A stretch of 64,000 nt of DNA from positions 620,001 through 684,000 of the forward strand of contig NZ_CP080376.1 in the NCBI RefSeq assembly GCF_019443405.1. The letters run 5' to 3'. Below are positions 32,344 to 39,549 of this stretch, one piece after another; within the stretch, counting starts at the first letter, position 1, and each line of letters begins with the position of its first letter. The notes under the pieces are model-generated. The model was given only the letters and a program-made list of their open reading frames with translations, did no database searches and was not told where the DNA came from. This DNA comes from Brevundimonas sp. PAMC22021 (GTDB lineage: Bacteria; Pseudomonadota; Alphaproteobacteria; Caulobacterales; Caulobacteraceae). The position numbers and the translations under genes are program-made.

Positions 32344-32550
32344 TGACAGCCGGGTCCTGTCACGCGGGGAGGCCGACCTAGCCCTTCCACCTGGTCTCCC
32401 CGCGCTTCCCCTCTGCACGGTTCAGGCGCCACGCCTGCGCAGTTCGACCCGCCAATCCCGGTAAATTCCCGCCTTTGCGGGCGTTGGTGCCCTATCGGCT
32501 CGCCGGGGTTCGAGGCTGACCCAGACTGATCTCCGACATCAACGGAGATC
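32344..32550 (+). promoter_or_regulatory. Highly structured leader of the lysis cassette (five hairpins)
   Basis: The gene-free stretch 32249-32554 holds five consecutive inverted repeats in its 3' two-thirds: TGACAG/CTGTCA (32344-32362); CGCGGGGA/TCCCCGCG enclosing GACC/GGTC (32363-32404); CAGGCG/CGCCTG (32423-32437); CCCGC/GCGGG (32468-32481); and GATCTCCG/CGGAGATC (32528-32550). They are spaced like an RNA fold, not like scattered operators. I tested it by eye against tmRNA, SRP RNA, RNase P RNA and cobalamin, TPP and c-di-GMP riboswitches and found no match. Nothing clear is visible at 32249-32343. It could be a riboregulator, an antitermination site or an independent sRNA. Confidence 0.55.
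32528..32550 (+). promoter_or_regulatory. Hairpin sequestering a Shine-Dalgarno sequence
   Basis: A perfect 8-bp inverted repeat, GATCTCCG-(7 nt)-CGGAGATC. The right arm contains the GGAG ribosome-binding site of the GTG-started ORF at 32555. When folded, ribosome access would be blocked, so translation of the whole coupled cassette could be switched at this point. It could alternatively be a protein operator. Confidence 0.6.
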
Positions 32551-32554
32551 ACGC

Positions 32555-32668
32555 GTGAAAGACGATATCAGCGCCCGCATGGGCCCACCCCGCCTGTCGG
32601 CGAGCGACGGCGACGATGGCGACCTGCGCCTTGCAGGCATGATGGTCGGCGGGCAGGGCCGCCCATGA
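32555..32668 (+). CDS. 37-residue leader ORF of the lysis cassette
   Basis: A short ORF starting at GTG 32555 with GGAG 7 nt upstream, the site covered by the hairpin at 32528-32550. The product begins MKDDISARMGPPRL and contains an acidic patch (SDGDDGDLRL). Its stop overlaps the next start in an ATGA junction. I do not recognise it. Its place at the head of five coupled or overlapping genes argues that it is translated. It may serve as a translational entry point more than as a functional protein. Confidence 0.55.
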   Translation: MKDDISARMGPPRLSASDGDDGDLRLAGMMVGGQGRP

Positions 32669-32802
32669 TCGCCGACGAGGATTTCGCCCTCCTGGACGAG
32701 GACGCCTGGGAGGCTCCCGACCACCTGACCGAGGACGACTGCTGGGCCGTCACGGGCTTCGCCTCGCCGCGCGACCGCCATGACGAGGAGGACGGCCGAT
32801 GA
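32665..32802 (+). CDS. 45-residue acidic ORF of the lysis cassette
   Basis: An ATG-started ORF linked by 4-nt overlaps to the 37-residue ORF before it and the holin-like gene after it. The product is strongly acidic (MIADEDFALLDEDAWEAPDH, then LTEDDCWAV) with no membrane helix. I know no family. Possible roles are an antiholin or regulator of lysis timing, by analogy with small cytoplasmic proteins near phage holins; this is a guess from position alone. Confidence 0.6.
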   Translation: MIADEDFALLDEDAWEAPDHLTEDDCWAVTGFASPRDRHDEEDGR

Positions 32803-33050
32803 CCGCCGTGCCCGAGGCGCAATGGCTGTGGCGCCGCCTGTATGTGTTCGTCGCCAGCTTTGGCCTGTGGCGGCTGCTGGATCGGCTGGTCGAGCGCGCG
32901 GGACCCGAGCAGATGGCGGAGATCGCGCACGGGCTGATGACGCTGCTGGCGCTGATGCTGGTGCTTTATCTGGTGGCGCCCACGGCGCAGCAACTGGTGG
33001 CCCTCTCGGCCAACCTGCGGCTCCGGCTTGCGCAGGGAGGAGGGGCATGA
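32799..33050 (+). CDS. Holin-like membrane protein
   Basis: An 83-residue protein with one clear membrane helix (HGLMTLLALMLVLYLVAP, about residues 47-66). A weaker amphipathic N-terminal segment (RRLYVFVASFGLWRLLDRL, about 12-30) precedes it, and a short basic C-terminus (LRLRLAQGGGA) follows. Small size, membrane topology and position directly before an endolysin fit a phage holin that permeabilises the inner membrane to release the endolysin. Sequence alone does not prove it. The ATG overlaps the stop of the acidic ORF, and its own stop overlaps the endolysin start (ATGA). Confidence 0.7.
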   Translation: MTAVPEAQWLWRRLYVFVASFGLWRLLDRLVERAGPEQMAEIAHGLMTLLALMLVLYLVAPTAQQLVALSANLRLRLAQGGGA

Positions 33051-33430
33051 GCTTTCGTCTCTCTCTTCGTTCGCGCCAGCGCCTGAAGGGCGTCCATTCC
33101 GATCTGATCGCCGTGGTCGAGGGCGCCATCGGCCGCTCCGACATCGACTTTATGGTGACGGAGGGACTGCGGACCGCCGCGCGCCAGGCGCAGCTGGTCA
33201 AGGCCGGGGCCAGCCGCACACTGAACTCGCGGCACCTGACCGGCCATGCGGTGGATATCGCCGCCCTGGTCGATGGGCAGGTGCGCTGGGACTGGCCGCT
33301 GTATCCGCGCATCGCCAAGACCTTCAAGGCGGCGGCTCTCGAGCTTGGCGTGTCGCTGATCTGGGGAGGCGACTGGCCGCGCCTGCGCGACGGCCCGCAT
33401 TTCGAACTCAGTCGAAAGGACTATCCATGA
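33047..33430 (+). CDS. M15-family peptidoglycan peptidase (phage-type endolysin)
   Basis: A 127-residue M15 (VanY-like) metallopeptidase of the size of single-domain phage endolysins such as T5 Lys. The zinc site is visible: H63 and D70 in SRHLTGHAVDIAA, and H118 in the terminal DGPHFEL, with D115 as the candidate catalytic residue. Other blocks are VTEGLRTAARQAQL and WGGDWPRL. It should cut an L-Ala-D-Glu or D-Ala-D-Ala-type bond in peptidoglycan. There is no signal peptide, so it needs the holin-like protein to reach the wall. It overlaps both neighbours by 4 nt. Confidence 0.9.
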   Translation: MSFRLSLRSRQRLKGVHSDLIAVVEGAIGRSDIDFMVTEGLRTAARQAQLVKAGASRTLNSRHLTGHAVDIAALVDGQVRWDWPLYPRIAKTFKAAALELGVSLIWGGDWPRLRDGPHFELSRKDYP

Positions 33431-33843
33431 AGGCCGGGCTGAGGATGCTGACGCCGCTCGGATGGCTGGCCTTGGCTATTGGCGGGATCCTGGTTGTTGC
33501 GGTGCTGGCGGGCGGGCTCGGTTTTAGGTGGGACCCGCTGGGGCTGGACCGGAGGCGACTCGACACAGCCCAGGCGCAGGCGGCGGCGGGTCGCGCAGCA
33601 GAGACGGCGCGACGCCTCGAGCAGCAAGGCGAAGCCACCCAGCAGCGCCGCTTGGACATCTTCAACGACACCACGACCCAGGCGGCGCGCGCGACCGCGA
33701 CCGCCGTCACTCAGGCCCGGAGCGCCGACGATGCACACACGCCCCTTGATCCCGATCGCCTTCGCCGTCTGCGCGAGCATGACCGCGAGCTGTGCCGCCT
33801 CGCCCCCGATGTCGATGGCTGCGCCGCGCCTGGTCCTGCCTGA
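33427..33843 (+). CDS. Rz-like inner-membrane spanin subunit
   Basis: A 138-residue protein with an N-terminal signal-anchor helix (about residues 9-31, PLGWLALAIGGILVVAVLAGG). A long hydrophilic periplasmic part rich in Ala/Gln/Arg has coiled-coil character (AQAQAAAGRAAETARRLEQQ, then NDTTTQAARATATAVTQARS). The C-terminus is DRELCRLAPDVDGC. This is the layout of phage i-spanins, which span the periplasm and fuse the membranes in the last lysis step. The next lipoprotein ORF begins inside it in another frame, as Rz1 does in Rz. Confidence 0.78.
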   Translation: MKAGLRMLTPLGWLALAIGGILVVAVLAGGLGFRWDPLGLDRRRLDTAQAQAAAGRAAETARRLEQQGEATQQRRLDIFNDTTTQAARATATAVTQARSADDAHTPLDPDRLRRLREHDRELCRLAPDVDGCAAPGPA

Positions 33844-34066
33844 GGCGGCAAGCCGGCCGTGCGACATGGCCGTGGTGCCCGACGCCGCCACCCTTGCCGA
33901 TCTCGAGACCGCCTATGTTCAGCGAGGCGAGCAACTGGTGCGGTGCGACGGCGCACGGCGACTGGCGGTCGAGACGCTGCTGGCCGAACGATCCATGATG
34001 GACGCCTGGTCAGCCGAGACGAACAAGCCCTCCCGTCGGTGGCGGCCAAGATCGGACGGACACTGA
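33731..34066 (+). CDS. Rz1-like outer-membrane lipoprotein (o-spanin), overlapping Rz
   Basis: A 111-residue ORF starting at ATG 33731, in a different frame from the Rz-like gene and overlapping its last 113 nt. The N-terminus is a lipoprotein signal peptide (MHTRPLIPIAFAVCASM), with lipidation expected at C21 in TASC. A Pro-containing stretch (AASPPMSMAAPRLVLPEA) and a helical segment follow. Small Pro-rich lipoproteins nested in Rz are the classical o-spanins. It is longer than lambda Rz1 and extends past Rz, as in overlapping-type spanin pairs. The lipobox -3 position is Thr, not Leu. Confidence 0.68.
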   Translation: MHTRPLIPIAFAVCASMTASCAASPPMSMAAPRLVLPEAASRPCDMAVVPDAATLADLETAYVQRGEQLVRCDGARRLAVETLLAERSMMDAWSAETNKPSRRWRPRSDGH

Positions 34067-34270: not shown

Positions 34271-35293
34271 ATGGCTAACAGCATCAACACCAACTATGGC
34301 GCTTCCGTTGCGCTGCAGAACCTGAACGCGACCAATCGCGCTCTGGAAACCACCCAAGGCCGCATCAACACCGGCAAGGCGATCACCAGCGCCAAGGACA
34401 ATGGCGCGATCTGGTCGATCGCTCAATCGCAGACGGTTCAGATGAACTCGCTGGATGCGGTGAAGCAATCGCTTCAACGCGGTCAGTCGACCATCGACGT
34501 CGCGATGTCGGCCGGCGAGACGGTCAAGGACGTCCTGGGCCAGATGAAGAGCCTGGTTCTGGCGGCTTCGGATCCCAGCGCCGACAAGGCCAGCCTGGAC
34601 GCGTACGAGGAGGACTTCAAGAACCTCGCCAAGCAGATTACGACGACCATTCAGGGCGCCAACTTCAACGGCGTCAACATGATCGCCAACCTGGACGCCA
34701 ACGGCGTCGTGGTGAACAAGTCGGACGCCGCGACCCAGACCGCCACCGGCAAGTCGCTGAAGGCTCTGGCCAGCGCCGATGGCAAGAACGCCATTGAAGT
34801 GACCGGCCTGAACTTCGGCCTGTACACGGCCGATGGCCGCACCGGCACGGTTGCGGGCACCGCGACTGTCGCGGGCGCCGCCGGCAGCGCCACCAACGCC
34901 GGCGCTTCGGGCGTCAAGGTCGCTTCGGACTCCTTCACGGCGGCTCGCACCGCGGCGAAGGTCCACTCCGACGCAGGCCTCGGCACCGCCGCGAACGAAA
35001 CGGCCCGCACGGCGGAATGGTCGAACCTGATGAAGCAGGTCGACGACTCGATCACTTACGTGACGAGCTCGCTGACCAAGCTGGGCACCGGCTCGAAGGC
35101 GCTGGACAACCAGCTGACCTTCACCTCCAAGCTGCAGGACACCCTGGAAACGGGGATCGGCAACCTGGTGGACGCCGACCTGGCCAAGGAAAGCGCCAAG
35201 CTGACGGCCCTGCAAACCAAGCAACAGCTGGGCGTGCAGGCTCTGTCGATCGCGAACTCGTCGAGCTCGGTTCTGCTCAGCCTGTTCCGCTAA
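34271..35293 (+). CDS. Flagellin, FljK-like (copy 1)
   Basis: A 340-residue filament protein. The conserved N-terminal D0/D1 helix (MANSINTNYGASVALQNLNA, then RINTGKAITSAKDNGAIWSIAQ) and the C-terminal D1/D0 helix (GIGNLVDADLAKESAKLTAL, ending SSSSVLLSLFR) match Caulobacter flagellins. It is about 65 residues longer than the 273-residue Caulobacter type because of a central Ala/Gly/Thr-rich insert near residues 180-240. That insert is the surface-exposed part and should carry glycans in this group. AGAAGGA precedes ATG 34271. It is closely paralogous to the gene at 35738. Confidence 0.95.
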   Translation: MANSINTNYGASVALQNLNATNRALETTQGRINTGKAITSAKDNGAIWSIAQSQTVQMNSLDAVKQSLQRGQSTIDVAMSAGETVKDVLGQMKSLVLAASDPSADKASLDAYEEDFKNLAKQITTTIQGANFNGVNMIANLDANGVVVNKSDAATQTATGKSLKALASADGKNAIEVTGLNFGLYTADGRTGTVAGTATVAGAAGSATNAGASGVKVASDSFTAARTAAKVHSDAGLGTAANETARTAEWSNLMKQVDDSITYVTSSLTKLGTGSKALDNQLTFTSKLQDTLETGIGNLVDADLAKESAKLTALQTKQQLGVQALSIANSSSSVLLSLFR

Positions 35294-35300
35294 GGCCTTT

Positions 35301-35337
35301 GAGGGGGAGGCGGGTTCGCCCGTCTCCCTCTTCTTCC
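35301..35337 (+). terminator. Rho-independent terminator after flagellin 1
   Basis: A G/C-rich stem, GAGGGGGAGGCGGG with CCCGTCTCCCTC, closed by a stable TTCG tetraloop and followed by TTCTT. It begins 7 nt after the flagellin stop and should end its abundant transcript. Confidence 0.8.
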
Positions 35338-35374
35338 CAATCTCTCAAGGGGGCGCGGCCTGGTCGCGCGGAGG

Positions 35375-35644
35375 ATGATGTCAGATCATGTCGCTCCAGT
35401 ACCCAGCGTAACGCCCGCAAACATCCCGGCTTCTCCCGTTCAGGCAATCTCGCCTGCCGCATCCGCCTCGGCCGACGCCGCGCGCTATCGCCTGGTGATC
35501 GAGGCGGCGAACGACGGCTTTGTCTACAAGACCGTGGATCGTCAGACCGGAGAGGTGGTGCGCCAGTGGCCTCGCGAAGAGGTGCAAAAGCTGGCCGACG
35601 ATCCGACCTATCGCCAGGGCCGCATCATCGTCGCCGACGTCTGA
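35375..35644 (+). CDS. flaG: FlaG-like flagellar protein
   Basis: An 89-residue protein. The N-terminal 35 residues are Pro/Ala/Ser-rich and the C-terminal domain shows the FlaG pattern: YRLVIEAANDGFVYKTVDRQ, TGEVVRQWPREEVQKLAD. The family affects filament length and export but its mechanism is unclear. The start is ATG 35375 or 35378; the GGAGG at 35370-35374 fits the second better. It lies between two flagellin genes, separated from the first by a terminator, so it has its own promoter or relies on read-through. Confidence 0.78.
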   Translation: MMSDHVAPVPSVTPANIPASPVQAISPAASASADAARYRLVIEAANDGFVYKTVDRQTGEVVRQWPREEVQKLADDPTYRQGRIIVADV

Positions 35645-35677
35645 TCGGACCAACGCTGACGCCGATGGTTTCCTCGC

Positions 35678-35708
35678 GTTAACCATCTGCACATATTTCG
35701 TGGTTAAC
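35678..35708. promoter_or_regulatory. Inverted repeat with CtrA half-site before flagellin 2
   Basis: A perfect 8-bp inverted repeat, GTTAACCA (35678-35685) and TGGTTAAC (35701-35708), with a 15-nt AT-richer spacer. The left arm plus one base reads TTAACCAT, a known CtrA half-site form in Caulobacter; the right arm reads TTAACCAC on the other strand. It sits 30 nt before ATG 35738. It is not the full TTAA-N7-TTAA consensus. Confidence 0.5.
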
Positions 35709-35737
35709 GGTCGCCCTACGAAGCTAGGGGCCGGACC

Positions 35738-36781
35738 ATGACCAACAGCGTGAACACCAACCGCTCGGCGCTCGTCGCACTGCAGAACCTCAACGCCACC
35801 AATCGGCAGTTGGACGACACGCAGAGCCGCGTGAACACTGGCAAGGTGATCAACAGCGCCAAGGACAACGGCGCCCTGTGGGCCGTGGCCCAGAACCAGA
35901 CCAACCAGATGAACGCGCTGGAACCGGTGAAGCAGTCGCTTCAGCGGGGGCAATCGACCATCGACGTCGCCATGGCGGCGGGCGATACGGTCAAGGATCT
36001 GCTCAGCCAGATGCGCAACCTGGTGCTCGCGGCCTCCGATCCCAGCGCCGACAAGGCCAGCCTCGACGCCTATGAGGAAGACTTCAAGAACCTGGCGACG
36101 CAGATCAACACCACGATCCAGGGCGCCAGCTTCAACGGCGTCAACATGATCGCCAACCTGGACGCCAACGGCGCGCTTGTCGGCAAGTCGACGGTGGCCA
36201 CCGAGACCGCCACGGGCAAGTCGCTGAAGGCGCTGGCCAGCGCCGACGGCAAGACCACCATCAACGTCGCCGGCGTCAACTTCGGCCTGTACACCACTCA
36301 GAAGGACGCGGGCACGACCACGACGGCCGGCACGGTGACGGGGGCGGGCGCCGCCGGCTCGGCCAGCAATGGCGCGGCCACGGGCATCAAGGTCGCCTCC
36401 GATTCGTTCACAGTCCGTCGCGCCTCGGCGAAGGTCCACAGCGACGATGCGGTGACCACGCCCGCGAACGCCGTGGCCGACGAAACGGCGCGCGCCGGTG
36501 AATGGTCGGCGCTGATGAAGCAGGTCGACGACTCCATCAACTACGTCACCAGCACGCTGACCAAGCTGGGCACCGGCTCGAAGTCGCTGGACAACCAGCT
36601 GCTGTTCACCAGCAAGCTGGCCGACAGTCTGGAAACCGGCATCGGCAATCTGGTGGATGCGGACCTGGCCAAGGAAAGCGCGCGTCTGACCGCGCTGCAG
36701 ACCAAGCAGCAGCTGGGCGTGCAGGCGCTGTCGATCGCAAACGCTGCGCCGCAGACGATCCTGTCGCTGTTCCAGAACTAA
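35738..36781 (+). CDS. Flagellin, FljK-like (copy 2)
   Basis: A 347-residue flagellin with the same layout as copy 1. The N-terminal block is MTNSVNTNRSALVALQNLNA and RVNTGKVINSAKDNGALWAV; the C-terminal block is LADSLETGIGNLVDADLAKE, ending APQTILSLFQN. The end differs from copy 1 (LSLFR). The central variable insert (about residues 185-245, Thr/Ala/Gly-rich) is longer and differs in sequence, while both ends are nearly the same. It has its own upstream region with CtrA-like half-sites. Two flagellins expressed under different control suggest a multi-flagellin filament. Confidence 0.95.
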   Translation: MTNSVNTNRSALVALQNLNATNRQLDDTQSRVNTGKVINSAKDNGALWAVAQNQTNQMNALEPVKQSLQRGQSTIDVAMAAGDTVKDLLSQMRNLVLAASDPSADKASLDAYEEDFKNLATQINTTIQGASFNGVNMIANLDANGALVGKSTVATETATGKSLKALASADGKTTINVAGVNFGLYTTQKDAGTTTTAGTVTGAGAAGSASNGAATGIKVASDSFTVRRASAKVHSDDAVTTPANAVADETARAGEWSALMKQVDDSINYVTSTLTKLGTGSKSLDNQLLFTSKLADSLETGIGNLVDADLAKESARLTALQTKQQLGVQALSIANAAPQTILSLFQN

Positions 36782-36840: not shown

Positions 36841-39549
36841 ATGATCAGCAACAGCTATGTTCTGGGCCTGTTCGGCGTTTCGACCAGCGCCGGCGCCTCC
36901 GTGTCCACGGCCGTCCTCGCGGCGGCCGCCAAGCGGCAGCCGACCGCGCCCTGGTCCACGACGGTGGTCAAGACCGAGCAGAGCGAACTGGTGCGCGAGG
37001 CCCTGCGCTCGCGCAGCCTGATCTCCGAATCCGAAGTCGATCTGGACGTCAAAGGCGCCTCGTCCGACTACAGCAAGCTGTTCGCCCTCTATAAGGGCCT
37101 GACCAGCCTGTCGGCGCTGGCTACGCGCGCCGGCGAGGCGGGGGTGACTTCCACCGAACTGGCCCAGCTCAGAAAGCGGTTCGCCTCCGGGCTGGCCGAA
37201 GCCTCCGCCTACGTCGGCGCGGCCTCCATGAAGGAGGTGCGGCTGGTGCAGGGGCTGTCGGCCACCTCCAGCAAGACTACCGCAGGCGTGGAAAAGGCCA
37301 ACGCCGTCTATCAGGGCGCGCCGATCCACAAGGGCTCGGCCAGCGAGCCGGTGAAGGCGTTCGAGGGCGACGTGCGCTTCACCCTGTCGCTGAAGACGGT
37401 CGGCGGGTTGAAGACGCTGGACATCGACCTGGCCAATCTTGGCGACAAGCCGCGCACGATGGATGCGGTGATCGGCCATATCAACGCCAGGCTGGCCGAA
37501 ACCGGCGTGGCCACCCGTCTCGCCAAGCAGCAGATCAAGGCCGAGCCGCGTACGATCGCGGCCGGATCGCAGACCATCACCTTGCCGGCCGGGCCGGATC
37601 AATGGGCGCTGAAGATCAACGGCGTGATCGGCGAAACCCTGACCCTGTCGGCCCCCGAGACCAGCGACGCCGTCTATGTGGTGCAAAAGGCCGGCGCCGG
37701 CGGGACGCAGCAGGTCGTCAAATTCCAGGCGGACGGCGGAACGGCCGACCCGGCGCAGGCCGGCGTCAACTCCACCTTCTGGGTGGAAGGGCAGTCGGGC
37801 CGGACCGACCTGCCCGAAGGCGTCACGGCCGTGCGCGCCAGCGCCACGGCGCCGGACGGCTCGATCTGGATGGTGGCGGACCTCGATCAGGGCCTGGGCG
37901 CCCAGCCGATCAAGGGACAGAGCGATGTCGCCCTGCTGAAGGTCGACAAGGCCGGCAAGGTGATCTCCAGCCAGGTGCTGGGCGCCGCCAGCCAGGCCAA
38001 CGGCTACGCCCTGTCTGTGGCGCCGGATGGTCGGGTGGCCGTCGCCGGATCGGTGATCGGCGCGCTGGACGACGGCAAGAGCGGCGATGCGGCCGGCGTG
38101 GCCGACAGCTTCGTCACCGTGTTCGATGCGAGCGGCAAGGAACAATGGACCCAACGTCGCGGCGCGCGTGCAGCAGACGAGGCGACGGCGGTCTCGTTCG
38201 GCGCCGACGGCGTGGTCTATGTCGCCGGGCGCGCCAAGTCGGCGATGAGCGGGGCCTCGGCCATCGGCGGCTGGGACGGCTATGTGCAGGCCTATTCGTC
38301 GAGACAGGCCAATGCTCTGGCGCCGGTCACCGCCACCAACATCGCCACGCGCCAGTTCGGCTCCACAGGCGACGACTCGGTCCAGGCGATAACCGTCAGC
38401 GGTTCCGACCTCTACACGGCCGGGGTCGAGAACGGACGCGCGGTGGTGCGCCGTTTCACGCTGGACGAGGCGGGTCGTCCGACGCTGGCCTCCATGCGCG
38501 ATCTCGGACAGATGCGCGGCGAGATCGCGGGGCTCGCGGTCGAGACCGGTCGCCTGATCGTCGCCGGCGCCACGACCAACCCTGCACTGGATGCGGGCAC
38601 GATCACCAAGGCGGCGTCCGGCGGCTCGGACGCCTTTGTCGCCAGCCTGTCGACGGACCTCCAGGCCGCGAGCACGGACCGGCTGACCTACTACGGCGGG
38701 GCCGGCGACGACACGGCCGCCGACGTGAAGATCACGAACGGCAAGGTCTGGATCACGGGCGTCGCTGACCGCGCCGCGACCGCAAAGACGACCGATCCGA
38801 CTCGCGCCTATCTGGCCCGGATCGACCCGGACACCGGTACGATCGAATACAGTCGGACCTGGCGGGGCGAGGGTGATCAGGCGACGCCCAGCGCCTTGGC
38901 CGTGGTGGCCGATGGCGCCAGCGTGCTGGACCGCCTTGGCCTTCCCAGCGGCCAGATCGCCCAGTCCGATCCCAAATACCTGACCCTGGCGACGTCGCTG
39001 CGTGTGGGAGACCAGTTCTCGGTCGCCCGCGGCGACGGGCGGGGTCGCGCAACGACCCTCACCATCACCGCCAAGGACACGCTGGAAACCCTGGCCCGGC
39101 GCATCGAGACGGCGGCGGGGCGTCAGGTCAAGGTCGCGGTCACCACCGACAGCACGGTGACCCCGCCGGTGCAGCGCCTGTCGATCACCGGCCTTGCGGA
39201 CAAGGGCGGTGCGATCATCACCTCGGGACCGGCGGGCAAGGACGCGCTCGCAGGCCTGGGTCTCAAGGCCGGCTATGTCGGCTTGAAGGATTTGGACGAC
39301 AAGGATGCGATCGAAACCTTTGGTCTCAACCTGCCGAACACCTTGAGCCTGGATGACGAGGCGGCGGTGAAGTCGGCGTCCGACGCCATCCTCGCGGCCC
39401 TGTCCTCGATCCGTTCGGCCTATCGCTCGCTGGCGCCGCAAAGCGCCACGGCCCCGACCAGCATCGCGACGGGCAGCAGCGCCGGCGCCGCCTACTGGAA
39501 CAGCAAGGCCTCGGCCTATCAGGCGGCGCTCAGCCGGCTGACAGCGTAA
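36841..39549 (+). CDS. flaEY: FlaEY-like flagellar regulatory protein, beta-propeller
   Basis: A 902-residue protein placed right after the flagellins, as FlaEY is near flagellin genes in Caulobacter; assignment rests on size, context and remembered similarity. The N-terminus (about 20-170) is helical (SDYSKLFALYKGLTSLSALA). Residues about 310-700 hold repeated blade-like units such as GYALSVAPDGRVAVAGSVIG, AVSFGADGVVYVAGRAK, and FGSTGDDSVQAITVSGSDLY, typical of SBBP-type beta-propellers. Residues about 715-800 resemble flagellin-IN/hook-associated motifs (LTITAKDTLETLARRIE). The C-terminus is helical. No signal peptide is visible. It may be exported with, or regulate, flagellins. Confidence 0.7.
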   Translation: MISNSYVLGLFGVSTSAGASVSTAVLAAAAKRQPTAPWSTTVVKTEQSELVREALRSRSLISESEVDLDVKGASSDYSKLFALYKGLTSLSALATRAGEAGVTSTELAQLRKRFASGLAEASAYVGAASMKEVRLVQGLSATSSKTTAGVEKANAVYQGAPIHKGSASEPVKAFEGDVRFTLSLKTVGGLKTLDIDLANLGDKPRTMDAVIGHINARLAETGVATRLAKQQIKAEPRTIAAGSQTITLPAGPDQWALKINGVIGETLTLSAPETSDAVYVVQKAGAGGTQQVVKFQADGGTADPAQAGVNSTFWVEGQSGRTDLPEGVTAVRASATAPDGSIWMVADLDQGLGAQPIKGQSDVALLKVDKAGKVISSQVLGAASQANGYALSVAPDGRVAVAGSVIGALDDGKSGDAAGVADSFVTVFDASGKEQWTQRRGARAADEATAVSFGADGVVYVAGRAKSAMSGASAIGGWDGYVQAYSSRQANALAPVTATNIATRQFGSTGDDSVQAITVSGSDLYTAGVENGRAVVRRFTLDEAGRPTLASMRDLGQMRGEIAGLAVETGRLIVAGATTNPALDAGTITKAASGGSDAFVASLSTDLQAASTDRLTYYGGAGDDTAADVKITNGKVWITGVADRAATAKTTDPTRAYLARIDPDTGTIEYSRTWRGEGDQATPSALAVVADGASVLDRLGLPSGQIAQSDPKYLTLATSLRVGDQFSVARGDGRGRATTLTITAKDTLETLARRIETAAGRQVKVAVTTDSTVTPPVQRLSITGLADKGGAIITSGPAGKDALAGLGLKAGYVGLKDLDDKDAIETFGLNLPNTLSLDDEAAVKSASDAILAALSSIRSAYRSLAPQSATAPTSIATGSSAGAAYWNSKASAYQAALSRLTA

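Follow-up and report, generated by a model that had tools for sequence, protein, structure and literature searches.

What is a phage-type lysis cassette for when it sits on a bacterial chromosome between an anti-sigma factor gene and a row of flagellin genes? The question is raised by a window of 64,000 nucleotides from Brevundimonas sp. PAMC22021 (bases 620001-684000 of a single 2.9-Mb contig), in which six plus-strand open reading frames (ORFs) occupy positions 32555-34066 and are joined by ATGA-type or out-of-frame overlaps. A preliminary description of the sequence had offered several roles for this orphan cassette: release of a gene transfer agent (GTA) or of a tailocin encoded elsewhere, or protein export mediated by holin, endolysin and spanins (type 10 secretion). 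We consider the GTA likely: the cassette would be the host-lysis (release) module of the Brevundimonas GTA, a proposal well supported by a cluster resembling the Rhodobacter capsulatus GTA (RcGTA) 1.2 Mb away and by the genus-wide linkage to a fibre gene. As phage-derived lysis genes are kept beside the GTA tail-fibre gene across the genus, they probably serve to release the GTA particle.

The cassette and its link to a GTA tail-fibre gene

In relatives of the strain, a gene of about 430-520 codons lies between the anti-sigma gene and the second ORF of the cassette. It belongs to the DUF2793 family (PF10983) and has a glycine-rich tail in three of the four cases tested. A profile search found DUF2793 in 102 of 105 Brevundimonas genomes (each at least 95% complete); those without it are PAMC22021 itself, G098 and G106, the latter two having contig ends at the fibre place. 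Among the other cassettes, 54 have 2.1 kb or more of upstream sequence, and in 53 of these DUF2793 stands upstream on the same strand, its stop codon 314-907 bp before the endolysin (399-480 bp in 51 of the 53); the sole exception, G028, carries DUF2793 elsewhere in its genome. Given this in-line arrangement, the fibre gene and the lysis genes appear to make up a single accessory operon of the GTA, whose members would be co-transcribed. The contigs of many relatives end just upstream of the cassette: an rRNA or tRNA repeat was considered as the cause and rejected (no Rfam match in five loci), and the glycine-rich part of DUF2793 is the likelier candidate.

DUF2793 is tied to the GTA in several ways. 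In RcGTA the tail fibre is Rcc00171, which is attached to the hub, or 'megatron' (PMC7296036), and PMC10883770 lists DUF2793 as the tail-fibre family co-evolving with GTA genes. Two chains of PDB entry 8gtc gave matches: chain S ('Ribonuclease III', 230 aa) with the Brevundimonas fibre, at E 2.2e-11, and chain M ('Megatron protein') with the hub of the PAMC22021 genome. We take 8gtc to be the baseplate of phage R4C, which fits the annotation of R4C gene 017 ('ribonuclease III', 230 aa); this gene lies directly 3' of a GTA-like hub gene and shares its PHROGs matches with the Brevundimonas fibre. In Paracoccus phage R3, a relative of DUF2793 and the end of the hub gene overlap. A phage-like contig (C328 of G313) reads hub, DUF2793, TIGR02594 endolysin-like ORF and holin-like ORF without family match, and is possibly a relative of the GTA's phage ancestor; it may be foreign to that assembly, for which 9% contamination is listed. 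On the same contig (L228), the GTA-type hub, DUF2793 and endolysin-like ORFs lie beside replication genes (Sak4-like, DUF669).

Outside Brevundimonas, DUF2793 was found in 68 of the 69 genomes with a GTA hub versus 8 of the 110 without one (both in 68, DUF2793 alone in 8, hub alone in 1 and neither in 102; phylogeny ignored). Three loci in other genera (L210, L212, L218) have it next to a nitronate-monooxygenase-like gene (one tested), with no cassette among the ORFs listed beside it. In two more, L219:9038-11669 of G184 and L221:12180-12644 of G248, DUF2793 is followed by further small genes, including an ORF of 71 aa resembling a membrane protein and another that by eye looks like Rz but has no PHROGs match: these are perhaps other fibre-linked modules.

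The cassette is a Brevundimonas-wide chromosomal locus. Its endolysin was found in 96 of the 105 genomes and, in the wider family, in 102 of 284, of which 96 belong to Brevundimonas; most of the 59 records of close endolysin relatives are also from this genus. Synteny beside flagellins, for which a check had been suggested in the preliminary description, is the usual arrangement in the genus, with the cassette directly upstream of the flagellin genes. All four lysis genes (holin, endolysin, Rz and Rz1) are kept in 83 of 96 judged genomes. The nine genomes left out of this count either have contig ends (G094, G098, G103, G110), show no cassette gene by the flagellins (G084, G113) or carry a divergent cassette elsewhere (G063, G105, G127); G026 was scored as full though its contig ends before the holin gene. 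Gene order and strand are kept in all 82 fully readable cassettes, as is the overlap of Rz with Rz1, a regularity beyond what chance would give. Losses have occurred separately at the locus in L186 (G097), L185 (G089), L192 (G071) and L184 (G080), the types among them being endolysin alone, endolysin with the spanins (twice) and holin with endolysin. Selection on the endolysin, also put forward for checking, is purifying: 4009 pairwise comparisons give it a median dN/dS of 0.24, and 3962 give the holin 0.47.

In three deep-branching genomes, G063, G105 and G127, the divergent set consists of M15, Rz and Rz1, and some 4-5 kb separate it from the same sigma/anti-sigma pair. No flagellin was found within the 20-kb stretches around these cassettes, so flagellin is not a constant partner. 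DUF2793 lies elsewhere in G063 and G127, the two with a listed place for it, and with cassette and fibre apart in these two, their fusion probably arose inside Brevundimonas.

In PAMC22021 the fibre gene has been reduced to ORF 1 (32555..32668, plus strand, 37 codons), which we read from its sequence as a deletion relic: the first part of its product matches fibre residues 3-14, the second part residues about 151-163, and its 5' DNA aligns with the fibre-gene starts of relatives. The conserved fibre-gene leader still precedes it, with an inverted repeat, ATCTCCG...CGGAGAT (32529..32549, plus strand), that overlaps the ribosome-binding region of the lost gene and folds into a predicted hairpin of -15.2 kcal/mol (z -2.98). 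The exact repeat stands before the DUF2793 start in 14 of 42 aligned relatives, and looser forms occur in others; as the hairpin was seen only at fibre starts in the loci compared, it provides no link between the cassette and the GTA cluster. ORF 1 being a partial fibre remnant, the earlier statement that every reading frame is intact does not hold for it, and the argument against decay that was built on this statement fails at the same point; the strain's GTA has a frameshifted tail gene as well. Of the two tiny proteins then described, the first is thus this relic. The second, ORF 2 (32665..32802, plus strand), is a small acidic protein of 45 aa without Pfam or PHROGs match, which has relatives in 75 of the 82 full cassettes. 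It lies between fibre and holin; a fibre assembly factor or a lysis regulator are possibilities.

The lysis genes proper (32799-34066) are all intact, and the coordinates, strand and overlaps of the six ORFs are as first described. The gene at 32799..33050 (plus strand) encodes a membrane protein of 83 aa with a hydrophobic segment at residues 39-70. Position, membrane segment and conservation beside the endolysin uphold its naming as holin-like, while Pfam, PHROGs and NCBIfam gave no family match, and we treat it as a candidate holin. The next gene (33047..33430, plus strand) encodes the endolysin of 127 aa, identified by its profile matches as an M15 peptidase of phage lineage (phrog_465, E 4e-58; PF13539, E 6.6e-12), with no signal sequence visible by eye. 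The intact H63, D70 and H118 that had been pointed out are borne out: together with S61 they form what we take to be M15 active-site residues, and all four are identical in 97 of 97 chromosomal endolysins, the window copy included. The Rz-like inner-membrane spanin (33427..33843, plus strand, 138 aa) has an N-terminal membrane segment, and the Rz1-like outer-membrane lipoprotein spanin (33731..34066, plus strand, 111 aa) starts out of frame inside Rz and carries a lipobox-like MTASC, read by eye. Both assignments agree with the preliminary ones, the PHROGs matches being weak (phrog_214, E 1.2e-4, and phrog_456, E 1.3e-4, respectively).

Phage origin of the module and the distant GTA cluster

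Where did the lysis genes come from? A homologous holin-M15-Rz-Rz1 module in the same order lies in a P2-like prophage of G131 (P2 capsid, baseplate J), and again in a region of G082 that by eye resembles another prophage. All four lysis genes were found in seven of 52 viral contigs (IMG/VR), and neither DUF2793 nor flagellin in any of the 52 viral stretches. When the four proteins were concatenated and a tree was built from 57 rows (48 of the 87 full chromosomal cassettes, plus all 9 from phages or prophages), a 99/99 branch parted the chromosomal from the phage copies; a tree of the endolysin alone, with 114 rows, has broadly the same shape, that fork being less well supported (84/85). Four full cassettes with no flagellin in range fall among the flagellin-linked ones in the endolysin-only tree. 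With the sampled chromosomal copies on one side of the 99/99 branch, the phage-derived module looks to have been domesticated once in the genus and inherited since. In the loci of ten relatives, no phage structural gene appears in the list of ORFs surrounding the cassette; loci beyond those ten were checked for cassette and flagellin genes only. Thus neither linked phage structural genes nor a relative with a full prophage at the site, which the preliminary description had named as evidence to the contrary, turned up in the ten loci.

Genome-wide, two kinds of phage gene were tested, the HK97-type capsid and the contractile sheath. The genome has one GTA_TIM hub and one HK97-type capsid, both in a single cluster at about 1.868-1.876 Mb, 1.2 Mb from the cassette; no second HK97-type capsid was found genome-wide, in keeping with the earlier observation that no capsid lies near the cassette. 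The cluster also holds terminase, portal, head-tail connector, tail tube and hub genes, and its hub matches RcGTA chain 6tba_8A over almost its full length (E 6e-237): on these grounds the cluster is RcGTA-like, and the suggested search for GTA genes has found its object. No lysis family was recognised among ten ORFs of the cluster run against Pfam. Its head-spike base protein belongs to NF048002, the RCAP_Rcc01079 family; at L035:16406-18014 (minus strand), between terminase and portal, this gene stands with a GDSL-lipase-like one (PF13472), and in the relative G036 no matching ORF is listed at this place.

The relatives' GTA structural genes are matched here in order, apart from one extra ORF within each relative's cluster that is unmatched in PAMC22021 and a short tape-measure-like tail gene that shows a frame change against two relatives (L035:10684-11204, minus strand; genome C1 about 1872683-1873203). 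This frameshift could be a real lesion or, since it sits in a GC-rich run, a sequencing error.

Proposed release of the particle and competing roles

How would the module work? A phage-type holin-M15 endolysin-Rz-Rz1 module would have been taken in once within the genus and come to lie behind the GTA's DUF2793 gene, giving the order fibre, small ORF, holin, endolysin, Rz, Rz1. When some cells produce the GTA, this unlinked accessory operon would be expressed along with it: the fibres would complete the particle, the holin would permeabilise the inner membrane, the holin-gated M15 enzyme would cut the peptidoglycan, and the two-gene spanin Rz/Rz1 would disrupt the outer membrane, letting the particles leave. 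The sequences show the anatomy of the cassette, its conservation, its tie to the GTA fibre and its derivation from phages; joint transcription, joint expression and a part in release are inferred from them.

The kind is already known from R. capsulatus, which is said to release its GTA with phage-derived holins and endolysins (PMC7296036); disruption of rcc00555 is reported to trap particles in cells, direct lytic activity not having been shown at that time (PMC3423380). The likeness extends to a main cluster without recognised lysis genes, holin rcc00556 and endolysin rcc00555 being encoded outside it, and to a tail fibre, rcc00171, of the same DUF2793 family. It ends where Brevundimonas has fibre and lysis genes in one apparent operon (in R. 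capsulatus the fibre lies apart from the lysis genes, judged from locus numbers), an endolysin of the M15 type and an overlapping spanin pair. The homologous phage modules of G131 and IMG/VR have the same gene order, but they are phage-linked, without DUF2793 or flagellin in the viral stretches examined, and on a separate branch.

Caulobacter and Brevundimonas belong to the same family. The Caulobacter crescentus GTA (CcGTA) resembles that of Brevundimonas in having an RcGTA-like cluster with a tail fibre distal to it, putatively CCNA_02456, which is induced by GafYZ (PMC9632790). Both PMC9632790 and PMC13236601 report no holin-endolysin homologues in C. crescentus, and according to the latter GTA lysis there needs the CARD-NLR-like LypABC, the lytic effector being unknown. 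This LypABC route contrasts with the holin, endolysin and spanins of Brevundimonas. Because both routes differ from that of Brevundimonas, the latter would be a third arrangement. Three things are new to us: the apparent operon with the fibre, the paired spanins and the difference from Caulobacter. None of them is described in the titles and abstract openings that were listed. Outside R. capsulatus, the exit of GTAs in alphaproteobacteria is an open matter, as is the final lytic effector of C. crescentus (PMC13236601). Brevundimonas offers a complete and easily deleted candidate in Caulobacter's family, and its species form a natural series with separate losses of GTA, fibre or lysis genes; the locus is also a case of a phage lysis module domesticated on its own and not within a prophage.

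Several observations weigh against particle release. In PAMC22021 itself the GTA looks damaged, with its fibre relic and frameshifted tail gene. Six judged genomes have neither hub nor capsid (the capsid of G136 being a 34-residue match only, E 8e-4): the full lysis set persists in four of them, G065, G119, G135 and G136, and the spanins are gone from the other two, G011 and G116. The fibre ORF of G135 reads only 316 codons, with an out-of-frame end. Hub-negative genomes with a capsid or pieces are G027, G031, G068, G073, G097 and G125. Lysis genes are lost in 5 of 17 GTA-negative or degraded genomes versus 8 of 79 GTA-positive ones (all four kept in 12 and 71, respectively), an enrichment that is weak (Fisher p 0.05, phylogeny ignored). 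Eight GTA-positive genomes are thus without at least one lysis gene at the locus, and if G084 and G113 are scored as losses the figure becomes 10 of 81, which weakens the association. Counts of changes in sister trios gave p 0.03 for one choice of trio but 0.17 for each of two other choices; because it hinges on this choice, the idea that selection relaxed once the GTA was lost was dropped as not robust. A de novo motif search of low power gave no promoter motif in common with the GTA cluster; the expectation-maximisation motifs fell in coding sequence. A by-eye match between the regions upstream of cassette and GTA was discarded, as the GTA side looked coding.

Could the cassette act without a particle? 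Type 10 secretion cassettes combine an orphan holin, a peptidoglycan hydrolase and spanins on the chromosome, and through such a system, or through programmed lysis, the cassette would export a product or release extracellular DNA independently of any GTA. The full set kept in four genomes without hub or capsid fits this, as do the lack of a robust relaxation of selection in GTA-negative genomes and the usual position beside flagellins. Yet flagellin is missing within 20 kb of the three divergent cassettes, and the one conserved upstream neighbour is a GTA tail fibre, with no recognised exported enzyme as linked substrate; we regard this role as improbable. Far less credible is a recent or decaying prophage remnant. 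The lysis genes are phage-derived, their module recurs in the G131 prophage and in seven viral contigs, and ORF 1 has decayed, but synteny, phylogeny and selection led us to reject the idea: the locus holds the same site across most of the genus, its sampled copies lie on one side of the 99/99 branch, its endolysin is under purifying selection with active-site residues invariant in all 97 copies, and the ten loci list no phage structural gene. Release of a contractile tailocin is slightly less credible still. Cassette anatomy would suit any particle, yet the search for a tailocin elsewhere in the genome that had been proposed came back empty: no contractile tail sheath (Phage_sheath_1, PF04984) was found genome-wide, and the idea is refuted as far as tested.

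A further explanation concerns PAMC22021 only and is compatible with GTA release in the genus at large. With its fibre gene deleted and its tape-measure-like tail gene frameshifted, the strain may have a defective GTA and a cassette that has outlived it, a disused leftover of a dead GTA. Against this stand the intact lysis frames with all active-site residues, the relatives' GTA structural genes matched here in order, and a frameshift that may be a sequencing artefact; the leftover is quite possible, but on balance we doubt it. In this strain the cassette may be unused, or used for something else.

For the genus as a whole, GTA release is the reading that we prefer, and we extend it tentatively, at a little under even chances, to the family. 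On this extension the Caulobacteraceae would have exchanged the exit route of the same GTA: Brevundimonas would have captured a phage module once and fused it to the fibre operon, and Caulobacter would rely on LypABC and an unknown effector. The fused operon would since have become partly independent, outliving the particle where the GTA was lost.

Genes flanking the cassette

The flanks are, as first described, an anti-sigma factor and flagellin. Upstream on the plus strand lie genes for a DUF4112 protein (PF13430; 30435..30896), an extracytoplasmic function (ECF) sigma factor (PF04542, TIGR02937; 30933..31511), syntenic in several relatives, and the RskA-type anti-sigma factor (PF10099; 31508..32248). 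Downstream, a flagellin gene (PF00669/PF00700; 34271..35293, plus strand) follows the cassette, as it does in most of the genus loci read, and opens an array (34271-36781) whose copy number ranges from two to about seven at the same place across species. The flagellins are followed at 36841-39549 by a gene for a protein of 902 aa, which has no Pfam match and a weak SBBP-repeat match in NCBIfam, and which is conserved together with the locus, being present in 13 of 13 genomes searched.

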